DNA of 46,257 nucleotides from positions 1 through 46,257 of IMG/VR virus record IMGVR_UViG_3300045242_000039; one strand, written 5' to 3'. A program made the translations under genes and the position numbers. Under the pieces are notes generated by a model. It saw only the letters and a program-made list of their open reading frames with translations, was not told the origin of the DNA and ran no database searches. Origin of the DNA: a virus. This document shows positions 2,925 through 39,254 of the stretch, one piece after another (positions within the stretch are counted from its first letter, which is position 1; every line of letters starts with the position of its first letter).

Positions 2925-3296
2925 ATGAAGAAGCCGGTGTGGGACTCACACCCCGGAGTCAGGTCCGGACGGGACCTGACCATCGGAGAGCGGGCCGCCG
3001 ATGCGGTCCGGGACCGCATGGGGTCCTGGTCCTTCGTGGTGGCCTTCCTGGGCTTCATGCTGGGCTGGATGCTCCTGAACGGTCGCCGCGGGGTGGATCC
3101 ATTCCCCTTCATCCTTCTCAACCTCGCCCTGTCGGCCCTGGCCGGTCTGCAGGGAGCGATCCTGCTGATCGCCGCGAAGCGAGCCGACCAGGTGTCGTCC
3201 GAGCTGGCACAGTCGGATCACCGTCTGCTGGTGCAGGTGGCACACCAGCTCGGGATAGAGCACGTCCATGACATCAACTGTCAGGAGAGCGAATGA
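2925..3296 (+). CDS. DUF1003-like membrane protein (123 aa)
   Basis: After a soluble N-terminus (TIGERAADAVRDRMGSW) there are two membrane segments, at about residues 35-55 (FVVAFLGFMLGWMLL) and 62-85 (FILLNLALSALAGLQGAILL). The AAKRADQ motif follows. This order is typical of DUF1003 proteins. The gene overlaps the lysin gene by 4 bases, so a role in lysis as a holin or accessory membrane protein is likely but unproven. AGGAGA lies upstream of the ATG. Confidence 0.75.
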   Translation: MKKPVWDSHPGVRSGRDLTIGERAADAVRDRMGSWSFVVAFLGFMLGWMLLNGRRGVDPFPFILLNLALSALAGLQGAILLIAAKRADQVSSELAQSDHRLLVQVAHQLGIEHVHDINCQESE

Positions 3297-4102
3297 GCAT
3301 CAAGGGCGTGGACTACGCCTGGTCGCACCCTGGGGGTGCGGCCCTCCGTGGGGCAGGCGTCAAGTTCGCCTGCCGCTACCTGTCGCACGATGCGTCCAAG
3401 ACAGTCCAGCGGCCGGAAGCCGACGACCTGGCCGCGCACGGCATCTCCCTGGCGGTCGTCTACGAGGACACCGCCAACCGGGCAGCCGACGGCCACCAGG
3501 CCGGAGTTAACGACGCCATCGCAGCGATGAAGATGACCAAGGGCATGACCCCCGGGTACACCGACCTCGGGATGCCGCCCGACCGGCCCATCTACTTCGC
3601 GGTGGACTTCGACGCCACATGGGCTCAGGTCAGTGACTACCTTGCCGGTGCAGGCCTGAGTATCGGCAAGTCCCGCGTAGGGGTGTACGGCGGCCTGGAC
3701 ATCATCACAGCCGCACGCAACGCCGGGTATACCTGGCTGTGGCAGGCATCCGCCTGGTCGCACGGCCAGTGGAACCCGTACGCCCAGCTTCGCCAGATGC
3801 TGGGCACCGAACACATCAACGGCGTCGACTGCGACATCAACGCCGCCATGGTGGCCGACTTCGGCCAGTGGACCCCCGGAGGGGACGACGTGACACCCGA
3901 ACAGATGACCGCGGCAGCCCAGGTGCTGCTCAACACCGCCATCACCAGCAAGTTCCGCAAGGACGCCAAGGGCGCCCCGCTGCAGATCCCCGTCCGCGAG
4001 TACTTCGACTACATGGACGCGCACTACGACAGCCTGATGCAGCAGATCGCCGCGCTCAACGCTCAGGTGGCGGCGCTGACGGCCGCACTGAAGAAGCCGT
4101 AG
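3293..4102 (+). CDS. Endolysin-like DUF1906 (glycoside hydrolase-like) protein (269 aa)
   Basis: Residues 1-200 match the DUF1906 / Rv2525c-like fold, a TIM-barrel related to GH25 lysozymes. The protein begins GVDYAWSHPGGAAL, with KFACRYLS, FAVDFDATW near residue 105, GVYGGLDII near 123, and WLWQASAW near 145. A C-terminal helical segment (residues 200-269) may aid cell-wall binding or oligomerisation. As the partner of the overlapping DUF1003 gene it is the best candidate for the main lysin. Its place between terminase and portal is unusual. Catalytic activity of this family is not firmly established. Confidence 0.8.
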   Translation: MSIKGVDYAWSHPGGAALRGAGVKFACRYLSHDASKTVQRPEADDLAAHGISLAVVYEDTANRAADGHQAGVNDAIAAMKMTKGMTPGYTDLGMPPDRPIYFAVDFDATWAQVSDYLAGAGLSIGKSRVGVYGGLDIITAARNAGYTWLWQASAWSHGQWNPYAQLRQMLGTEHINGVDCDINAAMVADFGQWTPGGDDVTPEQMTAAAQVLLNTAITSKFRKDAKGAPLQIPVREYFDYMDAHYDSLMQQIAALNAQVAALTAALKKP

Positions 4103-26454: not shown

Positions 26455-26853
26455 TTAGGCGGGGTCGAACTCGTCGTCCCCCGGTGGGATCATCTCGAAA
26501 CTGCTGGGCAGTCGTGCGACCAGGTCGCTCATGGCCGGGACCGGCCGGGCCGGAGGCCATGAGATCGCCGGAGGCGCCTCGCCCTGGTGGTCGAAGTTAA
26601 GCCGTGAGTCGTACTCGGCCCGCATGTCCATGACGTTGTAGTCGTCAATGGCGGACGGCTCCACGAGCCGTACCGGCAGCGGAATCAGCTGGCCGCTCTG
26701 CGGCTGCTGCTGCAGGAACTTCACCATGGCCAGGATCTTGGCCATGATCTGACTCTCGCCCATGTCGCTGGTCAGCCTCCAGCTGGCCGTCATGTCGTCG
26801 TCCTCGAACGAGAACACGACCTGCCGGGTGGTGATCTTCATGATCAGACTCAT
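26455..26853 (-). CDS. Hypothetical protein (132 aa)
   Basis: This is the last gene of the left arm. Its start is served by a CTGCT-GGAGAGG-AGCAG hairpin (26859-26875) that lies inside the end of the upstream coding sequence. The N-terminal half looks folded (KITTRQVVFSFEDDDMTASWRL ... MAKILAMVKFLQQQ); the C-terminal half is acidic and Pro-rich. No family is recognised. The stop of the upstream gene overlaps this start as ATGA. Confidence 0.6.
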   Translation of the reverse strand: MSLIMKITTRQVVFSFEDDDMTASWRLTSDMGESQIMAKILAMVKFLQQQPQSGQLIPLPVRLVEPSAIDDYNVMDMRAEYDSRLNFDHQGEAPPAISWPPARPVPAMSDLVARLPSSFEMIPPGDDEFDPA

Positions 26854-27767
26854 GTGCTCTGCTCCTCTCCAGCAGGCTGGCTCACATAGGTGGGCCGGAT
26901 GGCCACAATGCCATGGATCGGCCCGGTGTGCGAGATCCGCAGGTCACCGTCGATGGCGACGACGGTGGTGTCCGGCGCCACCAGGATGGTGCGGGTGGCG
27001 TGGCCGATGGAGTACTCCACGGCCAGCAGCACGGTCTGCTCAAGTGCCGCTGGTTGCGGCAGTTCCTCGTCAGAGATCGTCTTGAGGAACTCGGTCTTCG
27101 CCTCGGGCGAGACGAAGTGGATATCTTCGTCCGCGTCGATCTCGTCCTGCGCTGGGGTGGGGTCGCTATCAGTGATCCACTGGTAGCCGCAGTCCAAGCA
27201 TGTGCGCTTCTCGCGCTTGCCGCTACGGCTGTCGGGCGAACGCCAGTACGCCCTGGCGTTCCACGCTACGTGTTTGCATTCATCCGCACTGACCGTGGCT
27301 GCCGCCACCAGGGTCGTCCACTGGCAACCGCAGTCGTCGCACTGGCGACGCTGGCTCCAGCCATTGGACGCAGAAGCCGGGGAGCCGACACGGCTCCACG
27401 CCAAGTGAAGGCAGTCCGCGGTAGCGAAGTCCGTCATGGCCTTCTGGTACGCCTTGAACTCCCCGACCGAGGTGAACTGCTTCCCGCCCGCGTTGGCGTT
27501 GATGTACTCCAGCTCCTGGGCCGCAATCATCGCGGCCTGCTGCTTCTCCGGGTCGGCCCACTGGTGGCCGCACCAGTTGCAGATCTTGCGGGTCTTCAGC
27601 TCCGTGGTCCAGCGCCAGCTGGTATGCGGGCACTCAACCCACTGGGTGCAGTCCTGGCATTCGAAGCGGCCGTTGACATCCCGGTGGTGGGCCAGCTGCG
27701 CGTGGTCGCACTCATCGTCCGATGAGCTTGCGGAGTCCTTCGACTCCGTCTCTGACGTAGATCCCAT
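26850..27767 (-). CDS. Protein with four tandem zinc-ribbon-like units (305 aa)
   Basis: Four units share the layout CxH, a spacer of about 15-35 residues, then CxxC. The last three end in CGHQW, CGCQW and CGYQW. The CxH starts are ECDHAQLAH, ECPHTSW, DCLHLAW and ECKHVAW, near residues 19, 45, 118 and 160. Each could hold one zinc. The C-terminal third (residues 215-305) is a different, beta-rich domain. The start uses a GCAG-GGAGAGGA-CTGC hairpin and overlaps the upstream TOPRIM gene by 56 bases. Multi-ribbon proteins often bind nucleic acid or RNA polymerase. I know no family with this exact arrangement. Confidence 0.7.
   Translation of the reverse strand: MGSTSETESKDSASSSDDECDHAQLAHHRDVNGRFECQDCTQWVECPHTSWRWTTELKTRKICNWCGHQWADPEKQQAAMIAAQELEYINANAGGKQFTSVGEFKAYQKAMTDFATADCLHLAWSRVGSPASASNGWSQRRQCDDCGCQWTTLVAAATVSADECKHVAWNARAYWRSPDSRSGKREKRTCLDCGYQWITDSDPTPAQDEIDADEDIHFVSPEAKTEFLKTISDEELPQPAALEQTVLLAVEYSIGHATRTILVAPDTTVVAIDGDLRISHTGPIHGIVAIRPTYVSQPAGEEQST
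26859..26875 (-). promoter_or_regulatory. Start hairpin CTGCT-GGAGAGG-AGCAG (26853 gene)
   Basis: A perfect 5-bp stem with the 7-base loop GGAGAGG lies five bases before the ATG. It is inside the coding end of the four-ribbon gene, so the protein sequence and the RNA structure are both constrained. Confidence 0.7.
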
Positions 27768-28353
27768 TGCAGTCCTCTCCCTGCGGCAGTGTCACCTGCC
27801 GTGCTCGTACTTCCTTGATCAGGAAGGAGTTGAACTCCTTCCCGGCCTTGTCGCCGTCGGCGACGGCGAGCTTCTCGGGGAAGTCTTCGATCACCCGACC
27901 GAAGTGCTTCTTCCAGTTCTTCACCCCGCCGATGCCCACGGCCGGGAACCCGGCCGACGACAGCGTCAGGGCATCGAGCTCACCTTCGGTGATGCAGATG
28001 AACGGGCTGTCCTTGAACGAGTCGTTCACGTTGTAGAGGTTCCGGCCCCGGCCTGGCTCGGCCAGGTACTTGGGGCACCCCTCGTCCTTGCACACATGCG
28101 ACCGCAGGCAGCGGTACACAATGTTGACGACCCCGCCCCGGGTCAGATACGGGATGGTCAGCCTGCCGGTGAACTGCTCATGGCCCTGCCTAGGCCGCCG
28201 TACGACGCCCAGGCGGGCAGTAGCTGCGACCGCCGGACCGAAGCCCCGGGACAGCAGGTACTCCTGGGCGGTCGTATCCCCGCTTAGGTCCCTCTGGTAC
28301 TGCGTGACCGCCAGCTCGAAGAATGACTTCTGCTCGGGTGACGGCATGTCCAC
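27712..28353 (-). CDS. TOPRIM-domain primase subunit (213 aa)
   Basis: The central part shows a DnaG-type TOPRIM fold. The acidic motif is in FICITEGELDALTL near residue 120, and the second metal motif is in LAVADGDKAGKEF near residue 165. The N-terminal region (FTGRLTIPYLTRGGVVNIVYRCL) resembles the primase core before TOPRIM. The zinc-binding CHC2 domain lies in a separate upstream gene in another frame. GTG at 28353 has AGGGG eight bases upstream; TTG at 28359 and ATG at 28347 are alternatives. With the CHC2 gene it would make RNA primers for replication. Confidence 0.8.
   Translation of the reverse strand: MDMPSPEQKSFFELAVTQYQRDLSGDTTAQEYLLSRGFGPAVAATARLGVVRRPRQGHEQFTGRLTIPYLTRGGVVNIVYRCLRSHVCKDEGCPKYLAEPGRGRNLYNVNDSFKDSPFICITEGELDALTLSSAGFPAVGIGGVKNWKKHFGRVIEDFPEKLAVADGDKAGKEFNSFLIKEVRARQVTLPQGEDCNGIYVRDGVEGLRKLIGR
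27769..27784 (-). promoter_or_regulatory. Start hairpin GCAG-GGAGAGGA-CTGC (27767 gene)
   Basis: A perfect 4-bp stem presents the loop GGAGAGGA one base before the ATG. It lies inside the end of the TOPRIM coding sequence. Confidence 0.6.
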
Positions 28354-28615
28354 GGTCAAGCCCCTCGTGTAGTGCGATGAGAGTCAGGGCCGTGCCCTTC
28401 ATCGTGCAGGTGAAGCAGTGGAAGTAACCGCTGCTGCAGTGGATGACCGCCGACTTCGTGCGGTCCCCGTGGAACGGGCACAGGATGGACTGCCAGTCCC
28501 TGCCCTCGTCGTCCCCGTCCCACCCGTAGTACTTCAGGATGGGGACGAGGGGCCATGCCGTGCGATCAGCAGGCTGATCACCTTGGCTCCAGTGGCGAAT
28601 GGCATACGAACCCAC
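28190..28615 (-). CDS. CHC2 zinc-finger primase subunit (141 aa)
   Basis: The GTG at 28615 is preceded by GGGGAGG with four bases between, an excellent ribosome site, so it is chosen over an upstream ATG at 28672. The core is the zinc motif LCPFHGDRTKSAVIHC ... FHCFTC (residues about 40-67), as in DnaG N-termini that read the template. The remaining frame overlaps the TOPRIM gene by about 164 bases, reading RAEVILRAGGHAVPEG, which fits the tail of CHC2 domains. It therefore seems a true dual-frame overlap, though a sequencing frameshift or programmed frameshift cannot be excluded. Confidence 0.75.
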   Translation of the reverse strand: MGSYAIRHWSQGDQPADRTAWPLVPILKYYGWDGDDEGRDWQSILCPFHGDRTKSAVIHCSSGYFHCFTCTMKGTALTLIALHEGLDRGHAVTRAEVILRAGGHAVPEGPKRGYDRPGVPAVPGLRSGGRSYCPPGRRTAA

Positions 28616-28941
28616 GAGTCCTCCCCAAGTTCGGGCATGCCGAGCTGACCGATCGGCATCCATAGGTCCCACTGATCCACAGCCTTGTGGTCGATCCGGA
28701 CCACAAGCGCGCAGTACGGTTCACCGGCGTTGACCCGCTCGGTGAGCGTTTCCTGCTTCCACTTCGGGATCGCGTTGGAGCGATCCCCTTTCACTTCGAT
28801 GCAGAACAGGGGGACGTTGATCACGTCCCCCTTGTCCAGCGTCCCGGCGAGTGCTCGCCGTTCGGCCGTGGGCCACCACTGCTGCAGGTAGCGCACGGTC
28901 TTTCGTTCTGTCTCGGTTCCCCGAGCCTTTGCCTTGCTCAA
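28534..28941 (-). CDS. Holliday junction resolvase-like nuclease (135 aa)
   Basis: A TTG start at 28941 is inferred because it overlaps the stop of the preceding mini-gene. The upstream in-frame sequence is the shadow of that gene. The sequence SKAKARGTETERKTVRYLQQ, ERRALAGTLDKGDVINVP and FCIEVKGDRSNAIPKW has the E ... GD ... ExK order of PD-(D/E)XK resolvases of the Hjc type. Such enzymes cut four-way junctions formed in replication or recombination. Its 3' end overlaps the CHC2 gene by 82 bases. Confidence 0.7.
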   Translation of the reverse strand: MSKAKARGTETERKTVRYLQQWWPTAERRALAGTLDKGDVINVPLFCIEVKGDRSNAIPKWKQETLTERVNAGEPYCALVVRIDHKAVDQWDLWMPIGQLGMPELGEDSWVRMPFATGAKVISLLIARHGPSSPS

Positions 28942-33348: not shown

Positions 33349-34220
33349 TACGGGATCCGATTGGCCGGATGGTCCCGGTCGAACGTCTCCGACAGCTCTC
33401 CACCCTTGGCGTAGCAAGAGGTGGAGACGTCGCAGAAGAAGCAGTGCGGTCCGGGGTTCGGGTTGAGCAGTCCCTGACTGATCGCCTGGTAGGCGCGGTC
33501 GAACTGCAGGCCCATGTACTCCGGGGTGTACATCTCCAGGTTGAGTACCTTGCCCAGTTCGCCCTTGCGGTTCATGAACGGTGCCCCTTGGGGCACGATC
33601 GCCCCGTAGCGGGCTTCGATGCCCGCCCGGTACGTCCCGAACTGCAGCCCGTTGGCGGGCTGCCTGCTGCCTGTCTTGATGTCCACCAGGAACAATGCTT
33701 GATCGGGCAATACGAAGACCCGGTCTACGTATTGCTTGATCTCCACGGGGCAGCCGGGCAGCATGCCCGACGTGTCCAGTTCGATGGCGGGTTCGCCATC
33801 GGGTGTGACCCACACGTCCCACTTCGTGGCTTTGCGCCACTTGAAGTACGCGATGCAGAGCTTGGGGCCCAGTGTCATCCACTGGGCTACGCTTTCTTTC
33901 TGCCGCCAGGTCGAAATGTCAGGATCGTCCGCCTTGAGGCGGTCCAGTGCCTCACCGAACCGCAGCTGCCACGAGGCAGCCGGATTGAACCGTGCCCCGG
34001 TCAGCAGCGCACGGTCGAAGTCCTCGGTGCAACCGTGCACACCGAGGCCACCGGCCAACCACACAGCAGGCTTCTTCGGCGCGCCCACCAGGCGCGTCAG
34101 CTCAAGCTGCTTCCCGCACGTGTCCAGGGTGTTCTTCGCCGAGTACGACAGGTGCGTCAGCTCCCTGCGCACCAACGGGTTCGACCCCAGTACTGACTGT
34201 TCCTTCGACCCTCGGACCAC
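33345..34220 (-). CDS. RecB/Cas4-like PD-(D/E)XK nuclease (291 aa)
   Basis: The C-terminal two thirds match RecB-family exonucleases of the Cas4 type: VFVLPDQALFLVDIKTGSR near residue 175, with the Asp and the DxK pair. A C-terminal cysteine group, HCFFCDVSTSCYA, together with the N-terminal TCGKQLE Cys, could bind an iron-sulphur cluster. Such enzymes resect DNA ends in recombination. GTG at 34220 lies within the end of the WhiB-like gene; a GTG about 16 codons later is possible. The stop is shared with the converging plus-strand gene. Confidence 0.75.
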   Translation of the reverse strand: MVRGSKEQSVLGSNPLVRRELTHLSYSAKNTLDTCGKQLELTRLVGAPKKPAVWLAGGLGVHGCTEDFDRALLTGARFNPAASWQLRFGEALDRLKADDPDISTWRQKESVAQWMTLGPKLCIAYFKWRKATKWDVWVTPDGEPAIELDTSGMLPGCPVEIKQYVDRVFVLPDQALFLVDIKTGSRQPANGLQFGTYRAGIEARYGAIVPQGAPFMNRKGELGKVLNLEMYTPEYMGLQFDRAYQAISQGLLNPNPGPHCFFCDVSTSCYAKGGELSETFDRDHPANRIPY

Positions 34221-34938
34221 TGGTGAGGACTCCTTTGCGCTGGATCACACGCCGGTCGACCCGGCGCATCAGGGTGACAGCCTCCGGCTGGACCCACTTG
34301 CGGGTCTGGCTACGGCCGAAGTCGATCGACATGAAGAACCACGGTTCCACGTCGGCCGACTCGCCCTGGTAGGCGGCCGGGAAGTACCGGCCCTCCTGGA
34401 TCACCCAGCTGTCGCCCCACTTCGGCATACCCATCTCGGCAGGGCTGAGCGTGTGCTCCACCCTGCCAGGTGCCTCTGACATCCCGCGCCTGCTGGCCAG
34501 GTAGGTCCGCATGTACTTCTTCAGCGTGTCAGGGCGGACCCGGTACTCCTGTGCAAGGTGCTTCCAGAACGCCCCGCCCTCACGGGCCGCGGCGATCTCC
34601 TCACCCAGGCTGCCGCCGTCATTGCTGGCCTGCCGCCGGGCCATGATGGCCCGGTAGTTCCGCCGTTCATCACGGTCCATGCCGCCGAAGATCCCGTGGT
34701 CCTCACCCAGGTACAGGTCCAGGCACAACTGCTGCACGGGACAGCGACCGCAGTACGCCTTCGCTTCCTGCCTACGCCGCAGCGCGGCGGCGTTGGTCTT
34801 CCCTGGCTGCTCCCCGGGATCGAAGAACAGCTCAGGGTCCGCACCGCGACAGGCGGCACGGTTGTGCCACACCGGCTGATGCCGGGGGGCACGGTCAAGG
34901 AACCGGGTCTCACCGGCACTGTGCGTGTGGGACACCAC
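34102..34938 (-). CDS. WhiB-like regulator with a long C-terminal extension (278 aa)
   Basis: Residues 20-95 carry the WhiB signature: WHNRAACRGADPELFF, then YCGRCPVQQLCLD and GIFGGMDRDERRNY. The four cysteines would bind a 4Fe-4S cluster and the G-rich turn contacts the sigma factor. Usual phage WhiB proteins are about 80-120 aa. Here a helix-turn-helix-like stretch follows (KHLAQEYRVRPDTLKKYM, near residue 125), then a further 140 residues. The last 39 codons overlap the nuclease gene in another frame. GTG at 34938 directly follows the upstream TAA. It probably reprograms host or phage transcription. Confidence 0.85.
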   Translation of the reverse strand: MVSHTHSAGETRFLDRAPRHQPVWHNRAACRGADPELFFDPGEQPGKTNAAALRRRQEAKAYCGRCPVQQLCLDLYLGEDHGIFGGMDRDERRNYRAIMARRQASNDGGSLGEEIAAAREGGAFWKHLAQEYRVRPDTLKKYMRTYLASRRGMSEAPGRVEHTLSPAEMGMPKWGDSWVIQEGRYFPAAYQGESADVEPWFFMSIDFGRSQTRKWVQPEAVTLMRRVDRRVIQRKGVLTSGPRVEGTVSTGVEPVGAQGADAPVVLGEEHPGHVREAA

Positions 34939-36458: not shown

Positions 36459-37325
36459 CTACTCGTGGGGCTTGGGGGTGTAGCCGATGACAGCGGGCAC
36501 GTCCTCGTCGTTGCGGACGTACAGCATCTGGATCTCCTTGCCGATGGCGAAGGCGTTCCATGCCTTCACGATCAGCGAGTACGTGATCGTGCCCGTGCGC
36601 GTGGCGCTGGCACGCGTGGCAGGGGACGCCATGAAGGCGTTCCGCAGGCGCAGGCGGGAGTCCCGGGCGGTCAGCCCGGCACCACTGCTCAGGCCTTCCA
36701 GCCACGCGGCCACCTTCTCGGCGTACTCGGTCTGGTAGGCCTGGTACAGCACCGCCGTGTGCGGTGAGGGGGTGATACTCGACCGGCTCTTGATGCCCAT
36801 GGCCTGCCGGGCCGAGATCTCCAGGTCCGGACCGTAGTGCCGAACGTACTGCAGGGTCTGAGTGTTGGTCAGTTCCGCGTACGCCACGTTCTCGCTCCGG
36901 GGCGTCTCCAGGCCGTCCTGGGCAACCAGGATGCGCACCGCGGACGCCAGGACGTTGCGGTTGCGCTGGTGCAGCAGCTGCGCGCCGGTACGGCGGCGCC
37001 CCTCGTCCAGCTTGTCGAAGGTGTCGCGGGGCTGCTCGGGGAACACCCAGAACTCCTGCGGGATCCCGGCCAGGGCGACCGCCAGGAGGCGGTGCTGCCC
37101 GTCGATGACCCATCCGTCGGTGTCGAACGCGATGCCCTGGTGGGTCAGCGTCCACTCGCCGCGGGTCATGCGGTCCGCGTACTTGGCGACCACCGTACGA
37201 GCGACCGTGCGGTTCTTCTCGGAGGCGTTGCGGTAGTCGAGCCAGTCTCCGGCCATCTCGGGGGTGACCAGCATGACGGTGGGCTGGCTGGGCAGGCGGT
37301 ATTTGCTGTCACGCGGTGTGCTCAC
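36459..37325 (-). CDS. ParB/DGQHR-like domain protein (288 aa)
   Basis: GTG at 37325 is chosen because GGAGAGG lies nine bases upstream. An N-terminal ParB-like fold is suggested by VMLVTPEMAGDWLDYRN, then WTLTHQGIAFDTDGWVIDGQHR near residue 75-95 (given in part), and FDKLDEGRRRTGAQLL. The DGQHR element is shared with ParB-like nucleases and DndB-type proteins. The C-terminal 180 residues are helical. Such phage proteins may be nucleases or DNA-binding regulators. It follows a 250-base hairpin-rich gap downstream of an AAA+ gene. Confidence 0.7.
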   Translation of the reverse strand: MSTPRDSKYRLPSQPTVMLVTPEMAGDWLDYRNASEKNRTVARTVVAKYADRMTRGEWTLTHQGIAFDTDGWVIDGQHRLLAVALAGIPQEFWVFPEQPRDTFDKLDEGRRRTGAQLLHQRNRNVLASAVRILVAQDGLETPRSENVAYAELTNTQTLQYVRHYGPDLEISARQAMGIKSRSSITPSPHTAVLYQAYQTEYAEKVAAWLEGLSSGAGLTARDSRLRLRNAFMASPATRASATRTGTITYSLIVKAWNAFAIGKEIQMLYVRNDEDVPAVIGYTPKPHE

Positions 37326-37575
37326 GTTGGGGGTCCTCTCCAAGAACATTCCCCGGGCGTTTTGTCCGGGGTTGTACACATCCCCCGGCAGGGCCGGGAA
37401 GTTCAAGGCCAGACGCGTTGCGTGTGCGGGAACACACGGAACAGCCTGCAGCCACAGGCGCTCTGCGCGCCTGGCTCACAGCCGGTGGGTGCATCACCGG
37501 CTGGTCGATGACCGTAAGGCCGAAGCGGTGCAGGGGCACCTCACTCCCCTGCACCACGTTCTACCCGGCGGTCAG
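37326..37575 (-). promoter_or_regulatory. Hairpin-rich leader of the DGQHR gene (250 bases)
   Basis: No gene is supported here. Three good hairpins are visible: GGTGCAGGGG with CCCCTGCACC (37527-37555), probably the AAA+ gene terminator; AGCCGGTG with CACCGGCT (37480-37502); and CCCCGG with CCGGGG (37351-37371). The GGAGAGG start motif follows. It is the longest spacer inside the left arm and may hold a promoter. I could not identify clear -35/-10 elements. Confidence 0.6.
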
Positions 37576-39141
37576 TTACGCCTTCGGGTGCACCTGCTCG
37601 TCGCCCACCACTACGTGGTGGGCGCCGTGGGAGCTGGACAGCTCGTCATCGTCGTAGTTGAAGCCACGGGCGGACTCCAGCGTGTCCTTGACGACCTCGC
37701 GCAGCGCCAGATCCAGGGACGGCTTCGCCTTGCCCTCGTGGGCTCCGGTCATCAGCTCGAAGTGCGACCGCAGGCCCTCGGCCGACGACACGAAGTCGTG
37801 AGTCGTCAGCACGGCCTCACCGCTGCCGTTGTTGCGCACCAGCGCGTACTTGAACGCCCGGCCCACGGCCTCGTTGACGAACGCGGGCATGTAGCCCGCG
37901 ACCGACTTCGCGACCATGTCGTAGTCGACGTCGTCGGACAGGATCTTGGCGGGGATCGTGTTCTGGATCAGGCGCTTGACGCCGGATGCGTCCAGCTCCC
38001 CGATCTCGATCACGGCGTCCATGCGGCCGGGCCGCAGCATGCCCTTGTGGATCTTCAAGACATGGTTGGTGGTCATCACGACGATGACCTCCTTGCCCTT
38101 CCCAGTGATCCCGTCGGCGGCGTCCAGCAGCTTGCTGGTCCGCTCGGGGGACGCCGAATCGGCGACCACGTCGATGTCCTCGAAGAACACGACAGCCGGG
38201 GCATACAGCTGCGCGGTCTTCATGGCGTCTTCCAGGTTGTCCGTGGGACGGACGAAGATGAACGTCCACCCGTTGGCCTGCGCCTTCTGGGCGGTCAGGT
38301 ACCCCGCCAGGGACTTTCCGGTGCCGTACGGGCCGTGCAGCAGCACAGCCCGCTTCACCGACTGGCCCAGCGACCGCAGCAGTGCGGTGTGCTGGATCGG
38401 GGACCACAGGTGGACCGCCAGTTCCTCCAGGATGCGGTCCGAGTACACGACCTTCGCCGGGTCCACCTGGGAGGTGTCCAGGAACGTGATGTCCTCGGAG
38501 CCGTAGAACGCCTTGCCCCGGTAGATCGAACCGGTCTTCAGCTCCTCCTCGATGGCCCTGAAGAAGCCCTCGACCTGGCTGCGGTACTTGCGGGGGCAGT
38601 CCACCGACAGGTGGCCGATCAGGCCCAGCTCCCGGTCCCGCACGGCGCCCACGGCGATGACGCCCTGAATGGCGGGCAGTTCCACCAGCCCGGCGGGCAC
38701 CTGATCGGTCTGCCCGAGACCGATGTCGATGGTCTTGAACTCCGGCGGCGTGGATCCGAACATCGTGACGAAGTCCTTGCCGAGACCGGTGGTCCCGAAC
38801 AGCTTCTTCATGACGGTCTTGACCGCGTAGGACACGTCGTTGGGCCGGTACTTGAACGTCCGGGTGATCGAGTGGACCTTCTTTTCCTGCTCGATGTGCT
38901 GCTGCAGAAACTTGATAGCCTCCTCGGTCTTCCCGTTGTACTGGCCGGGCAGGATGAACTTCTCGCCCTCGAACAGCAGGGCGTCCTCCTGGACGCGGCC
39001 ACCGCCGAGCTTCTGCAGGGCTTCCAGGACCGCGGTGTTGATCTGCGCGTCCCGCGAGGCCTGCTCGCTCTTCGGCGAGGCGGGCATGTCGTCGTGCACG
39101 GCGAACGCGCTACGAATCATCTCGCTGCTGTCACGTGCCAT
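37576..39141 (-). CDS. AAA+ ATPase of the FtsH/CDC48 class (521 aa)
   Basis: ATG at 39141 has GGAGAGG eleven bases upstream. Residues about 250-450 form a classical AAA+ domain. Walker A is GPYGTGKS, Walker B is VVFFEDID, and VIVVMTTNH and HKGMLRPGRMDAVIEIGE give sensor 1 and the arginine-finger region. The N-terminal 230 residues form a separate substrate or adaptor domain. No FtsH zinc-protease motif (HExxH) is present, so it is an unfoldase or remodeller, not a protease. Possible targets are host or phage DNA-protein complexes. The size and clarity of the domain are notable for a 46-kb phage. Confidence 0.85.
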   Translation of the reverse strand: MARDSSEMIRSAFAVHDDMPASPKSEQASRDAQINTAVLEALQKLGGGRVQEDALLFEGEKFILPGQYNGKTEEAIKFLQQHIEQEKKVHSITRTFKYRPNDVSYAVKTVMKKLFGTTGLGKDFVTMFGSTPPEFKTIDIGLGQTDQVPAGLVELPAIQGVIAVGAVRDRELGLIGHLSVDCPRKYRSQVEGFFRAIEEELKTGSIYRGKAFYGSEDITFLDTSQVDPAKVVYSDRILEELAVHLWSPIQHTALLRSLGQSVKRAVLLHGPYGTGKSLAGYLTAQKAQANGWTFIFVRPTDNLEDAMKTAQLYAPAVVFFEDIDVVADSASPERTSKLLDAADGITGKGKEVIVVMTTNHVLKIHKGMLRPGRMDAVIEIGELDASGVKRLIQNTIPAKILSDDVDYDMVAKSVAGYMPAFVNEAVGRAFKYALVRNNGSGEAVLTTHDFVSSAEGLRSHFELMTGAHEGKAKPSLDLALREVVKDTLESARGFNYDDDELSSSHGAHHVVVGDEQVHPKA

Positions 39142-39254
39142 GATGGGTGGATCCTCTCCAAGGTGTGCGGCAGGGACTGTCCCCCTGCAGCTGGCCGTAA
39201 GGCCAACACGTGGCCCGACCTCCCCCAGGTCGGGCCACACTGTTGATCCGGCGG
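39142..39254 (-). promoter_or_regulatory. Leader of the AAA+ gene with strong hairpin
   Basis: GTGGCCCGACCT at 39210-39221 pairs with AGGTCGGGCCAC at 39227-39238 around a 5-base loop, a 12-bp stem. GGCC-GTAA-GGCC lies next to it (39193-39204). The start motif GGAGAGG is at 39153-39159. The strong hairpin is probably a terminator or attenuator after the 66-aa gene. It follows the same order as other left-arm spacers: hairpin, short stem, start motif. Confidence 0.7.

Follow-up and report, generated by a model that had tools for sequence, protein, structure and literature searches.

The window analyzed here is the whole 46,257-nt virus record IMGVR_UViG_3300045242_000039 of IMG/VR, one arm of which encodes, in order, a helicase, an ORF of unknown function, a RusA-like resolvase, the two halves of a split primase, and a 305-aa protein carrying an array of putative zinc modules (Table 1). 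It shows Streptomyces-phage traits: one portal-gene stretch has 70% identity to phage Stella, and among cultivated phages its primase comes closest, at 43%, to those of Beephvirinae-type Streptomyces phages. The acidic protein encoded downstream of the array gene belongs to no known family, and a Pfam hit to Ntox24 (E 0.024) fell below the cut-off and was dropped. Elsewhere on the minus strand, the window encodes a WhiB-like transcription factor (34102-34938; phrog_472, E 2e-19) and two long proteins, each similar to a PHROG without assigned function, phrog_5931 (36459-37406; E 4e-46) and phrog_10440 (37576-39240; E 5e-72, along with weak ATPase matches).

Table 1 Features of the array gene and its neighbors in the window
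Feature	Position	Strand	Remarks
CHC2 zinc half of split primase	28190..28672	-	
TOPRIM primase gene	27712..28359	-	56-nt overlap with the array gene start
Shine-Dalgarno-like GGAGAGG	27774..27780	-	within the primase gene, 6 nt ahead of the array ATG
Zinc-module array protein (putative modules)	26850..27767	-	305 aa; ATG at 27767, stop codon 26850-26852
Leader, aa 1-19	27711..27767	-	over the primase 3′ end; 74% identity to the leaders of L115 and L117
Putative zinc unit 1, aa 20-43, CDH..CQDCTQW	27639..27710	-	like CxCGHxxxxH modules of L116 and L002
Putative zinc unit 2, aa 46-70, CPH..CNWCGHQW	27558..27632	-	
Helical linker (predicted), helices aa 73-92 and 101-117	27417..27551	-	between units 2 and 3
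Putative zinc unit 3, aa 119-150, CLH..CDDCGCQW	27318..27413	-	
Putative zinc unit 4, aa 164-197, CKH..CLDCGYQW	27177..27278	-	
Constant C-terminal domain (CTD), aa 243-305	26853..27041	-	four-stranded beta meander; family-defining part
Acidic protein gene, downstream	26455..26853	-	ATGA overlap with the array gene

A first-pass annotation made from the sequence had described four C-x-H...C-x-x-C-(x)-QW units in this protein, and all four are present in an ORF with exactly the coordinates it gave. The common spacing logic that it proposed holds for every unit, but the distance from the His to the CxxC is unequal (14, 14, 21 and 23 residues), and unit 1 lacks the Gly (CQDC-T-QW). Four QW units compare with a maximum of one among 20,000 shuffles of the window protein (at least one was seen in 5 shuffles), and the four CxH..CxxC patterns with a maximum of two. 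The units display the ligand pattern of zinc ribbons, in which two metal-binding knuckles sit on beta hairpins, and by this pattern they would bind zinc, while prediction of their fold is of low confidence: in the AlphaFold2 model of the full-length protein, the CTD and the two inter-unit helices are confident but the units are not (mean pLDDT 62.9, pTM 0.31; units 3 and 4 mostly <50). The separate beta-rich C-terminal domain that had been suggested was recovered by AlphaFold2 as four confident strands; in the window protein it is free of Cys.

A family defined by its C-terminal domain

Neither viral contigs nor 50,697 phage records yielded a relative when queried directly with the window protein, and tblastn searches of the same phage records with the window protein, its CTD, and three relatives returned nothing significant. 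Relatives were instead reached with the neighboring primase as the first query and the CTD as the second. The primase search led to contig L002, where the gene following the primase encodes other zinc motifs and a similar CTD (its alignment with the window CTD scores 64, whereas 2,000 shuffles reach no more than 48). A primase-profile scan then recovered 76 loci, one of which, L012, was identified as a further member with a CTD profile, and CTD profiles subsequently recovered 13 and 24 viral loci on partly overlapping contigs. Among genome contigs, a first CTD scan gave none and a second gave three (S. composti, Streptomyces sp. t39 and S. himalayensis), while a search of 392 Streptomyces genomes found the CTD in two, S. 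composti again and one new genome (L129), where the primase is followed by leader, array, and CTD. The relatives therefore lie on contigs of uncultivated phages and in four Streptomyces genomes; the CTD was absent from the plasmids searched. Pairwise identities were computed for 24 members (276 pairs), leaving out L105 and L112, which are cut by contig ends, L107, a near-copy of L106, and L111, which has a short array; module, charge, and block counts cover 26 proteins, without L105 and L107, and L129, found later, stands outside the family counts.

Complete members begin with a short leader, continue with a Cys-rich array that spans 78-325 aa, and end in a CTD of approximately 50 aa, which is free of Cys in 25 of the 26 members. 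All 26 arrays read into the CTD in frame and contain 5-12% Cys. The earlier description of four tandem ribbons is true of the window phage, but the number and kind of modules vary across the family: CxH..CxxC modules are present in 21 of the 26 arrays and CxC[GS]HxxxxH..C modules in 20, and several different types can co-occur in one protein. In about half of the members, the CTD is preceded by a conserved acidic linker, EPPLTPEEEEEAP (e.g. L101, aa 236-250), which is possibly a recombination arm or a binding motif. The CTD itself follows the pattern V-x-Y ... D ... G-x-L-x-I-x-H ... P, in which the window aligns with 26 others and the residues Y, D, G, L, H, and P are invariant in all 27 rows. 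AlphaFold2 models it as four antiparallel strands (mean pLDDT 86, core >90). Structure searches with this domain returned no significant match in Foldseek (best E 1.4 in PDB and 0.37 in BFVD) and no chain with Z ≥ 2 among 181 compared by VIA-align.

The CTD sets the window furthest apart from the rest of the family, at 21-41% identity to the other rows. A profile of its units 2-4, with modules chosen by regular expression, matched L113 and L104 weakly (E 0.002), as did the reverse search (E 0.012); a common module pool for window units 2-4 is likely, short of proof.

The first-pass annotation considered the architecture to be unfamiliar, in agreement with our searches of Pfam, NCBIfam, PADLOC, and PDB sequences, none of which gave a match at curated cut-offs. 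Each Pfam family matches at most one of the 26 members, PADLOC defence-protein models match none at E 0.01, and a PDB sequence search with the window protein found none. Two candidates were rejected: the NCBIfam model for PriA (TIGR00595), which scored 17.1 against a cut-off of 230.35, and phrog_15307, a PHROG of unknown function that the window protein matches at E 7e-6, best at the CxxCGxQW of unit 4, and whose best stretch covers 12 of 88 positions; with one of the 26 members matching it, this indicates a shared motif only. In the open-licence literature, we found no description of this family or of zinc-module shuffling beside a phage primase. As far as these searches show, the CTD family is an undescribed phage family of segmentally variable proteins.

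The overlap with the primase gene noted at first pass is part of a link conserved across related loci. Among 27 loci (L101-L127), the primase is encoded directly or almost directly upstream in all 25 that hold that DNA, and in 22 of these the array gene, with starts in relatives set by leader motifs, begins 26-56 nt inside it. In the remaining three (L114, L115, and L121), 264-419 nt separate the two genes; the extra DNA in L114 (3023-3443) and L115 (465-874) is, we presume from a sequence motif, an HNH-type endonuclease gene. L121 encodes a 99-aa ORF at 3153-3498, ahead of the array gene, with the family leader (MPSNDSSGDEP) and without the CTD, which is perhaps a broken earlier array gene; a remnant of the primase tail lies under the leader of the array itself. 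A homologue of the acidic-protein gene is found downstream of the array in all 27 loci, as detected with a model (A4) built from the window, L002, and L012, whose own rows account for two of the 27 matches (L121 and L114).

Exchange of arrays on a constant domain

In nine pairs whose CTDs are at least 90% identical, median identity is 94% for the CTD and 88% for the primase but 36% for the array, relative to a baseline of 16% for shuffled arrays. In the sister contigs L089 and L088, 1,282 nt of upstream DNA are 91% identical and the CTD-coding DNA 97%, while a block in mid-array is unalignable. The mid-array module of L089 (= L113) shares 74% protein identity with a module of L104 at another position, and L101 and L102 (= L092 and L093) have common modules in swapped order; a swap of module order is seen in three pairs. 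Counted on ungapped blocks, since gapped blastp missed blocks, those with at least three identical Cys are common to 47 of 325 pairs, and in 26 of these 47 they are displaced by more than 30 aa. This variation is not assembly noise, because two contigs that derive from different metagenomes, L094 and L095, are 99.8% identical along 7,156 nt in which the array is included. We are confident in the evolutionary anatomy of the family, a variable array on a constant domain with modules reused in new positions.

Under the array leader of L115 (positions 874-931), 56 of 58 bases are as in L117 and unlike the end of L115's own primase gene, which marks this region as the scar of an array transferred along with the primase end of another phage. 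The HNH-type endonuclease may help to move array cassettes.

Exchangeable parts of this kind have precedents. The HsdS specificity subunits of type I restriction systems combine swappable DNA-reading domains with constant parts and recombine in conserved flanks, and the array family would resemble them in placing exchangeable heads on a constant part that change via conserved flanks. The array heads differ in being many small zinc modules whose targets are putative, whereas HsdS heads read DNA, and no HsdS family match was found in the Pfam, NCBIfam, and PADLOC scans. KRAB zinc-finger proteins carry fast-evolving tandem C2H2 arrays on a constant effector domain, a layout to which a fast-evolving zinc array with a constant domain may be likened. 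Unlike those arrays, the modules described here are a mixture of CxH..CxxC and CxCGHxxxxH..C types rather than C2H2, and a small beta domain that matches nothing known takes the constant place.

Segmentally variable genes, as presented in the abstract of Zheng, Roberts and Kasif (2004, PMC387263), contain a long variable stretch beside conserved ones, with a variable region of at least 70 aa next to well-conserved regions, and binding of protein, nucleic acid, or small molecules is the role proposed there for the variable parts. Arrays of 78-325 aa, with the low median identity reported above next to nearly identical CTDs, fall into this class, which is an evolutionary class rather than a family; an array of shuffled zinc modules within the replication locus of a phage, as found here, does not feature in that abstract.

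Possible functions of the exchanged heads

The reading we favor, to which we give somewhat less than an even chance, is that of an adaptor with a constant dock and variable, exchanged zinc heads. In such an adaptor, the CTD would stay fixed and probably dock on a phage partner that is itself conserved and produced simultaneously, candidates being the overlapping primase, the downstream acidic protein, or the CTD protein itself. The N-terminal zinc modules of several types would serve as target-binding heads that phages swap by recombining within conserved flanks, namely the primase tail and leader on one side and the CTD on the other, while the overlapping start would couple translation of the array to that of the primase. 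That heads change quickly while the base stays fixed suggests variable, probably hostile targets, such as factors of the host or of a competitor. In 25 of the 26 members the N-terminal part carries a net negative charge, which speaks against unspecific nucleic-acid binding and makes proteins the more likely targets. Units 2 and 4 of the window are basic (net charge +3 and +5), and this charge might instead be that of a nucleic-acid binder, counter to a model with protein targets. Small genes near the array also differ between relatives, so the region may simply be recombinogenic. The low-confidence model of the units likewise counts against the adaptor, as do two selection results given below, the uneven constraint on shared modules and a CTD dN/dS that is not especially low.

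The strongest alternative, which we consider rather unlikely, is a replication accessory, a possible role in replication having been raised by the first-pass annotation as well. In this reading, the modules would bind phage DNA or primer RNA, the CTD would recruit the split primase or helicase, and modules would differ since binding sites differ between phages. The two basic window units would suit such a role, as would the position of the gene in a replication block, with the primase overlap in most loci and with helicase, RusA-like resolvase, and primase halves in the same window arm. A weak NCBIfam match of aa 30-75 to residues 212-258 of PriA (E 0.0016) points the same way, although it probably reflects the Cys pattern only. 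Against this stand the overall acidity of the arrays and the co-occurrence of several module types in one protein; moreover, where primases are 88% identical and arrays unalignable, the choice of site would have to shift without a change of enzyme. The cultivated Beephvirinae phages FlowerPower (gp56) and Abafar (Abafar_00045) carry at the same place, starting over the primase stop, an unrelated gene of approximately 77 aa without zinc motifs, unlike the array protein. A replication role is a guess by association.

Less probable still is that the array itself is neutral, in which case the interval between primase tail and CTD would be a recombination hotspot that collects zinc modules and the CTD alone would matter. 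Both the wide spread of array lengths and the HNH-type genes that have entered this boundary in L114 and L115 are consistent with this. Selection was evaluated by Nei-Gojobori counting, a simple method applied here to small counts. Ten shared array blocks, picked by hand, gave dN/dS values of 0.15-1.00, with two near neutrality (0.95 and 1.00), as a neutral array would predict, but with six below 0.4 and eight below 0.7; modules thus appear mostly constrained once placed, with exceptions. For the CTD, the median dN/dS of 0.47 (320 pairs) is not especially low. That every one of the 26 arrays is in frame with the CTD and Cys-rich also argues against neutrality, as random acquisition would not be expected to yield Cys-rich modules every time.

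A transcription factor whose zinc ribbons bind host RNA polymerase, a reading that follows the first-pass suggestion of polymerase binding, is very improbable and found no supporting evidence, for although polymerase-associated proteins often carry zinc ribbons, no similarity to a polymerase-binding family was above threshold, Foldseek rows with polymerase chains were not significant (E >4), and RNA polymerase is conserved among hosts, so that constant exchange of heads should be needless.

Exchangeable heads on a constant base usually signal a recognition conflict, and under the adaptor model diversification is probably driven by an arms race. More tentatively than for the adaptor itself, we suggest a combinatorial targeting system, in which a population-wide repertoire of zinc modules is displayed on one dock beside the primase, with HNH-assisted exchange, against factors of hosts or rivals; with the same reservation, a phage recognition protein of this kind would be a class so far undescribed. 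Streptomyces phages carry the array gene within their replication block; it is unnamed in all libraries searched, and its heads form a natural collection of small zinc modules. Members with the same base and differing heads enable a direct test of which host factor each head would see.
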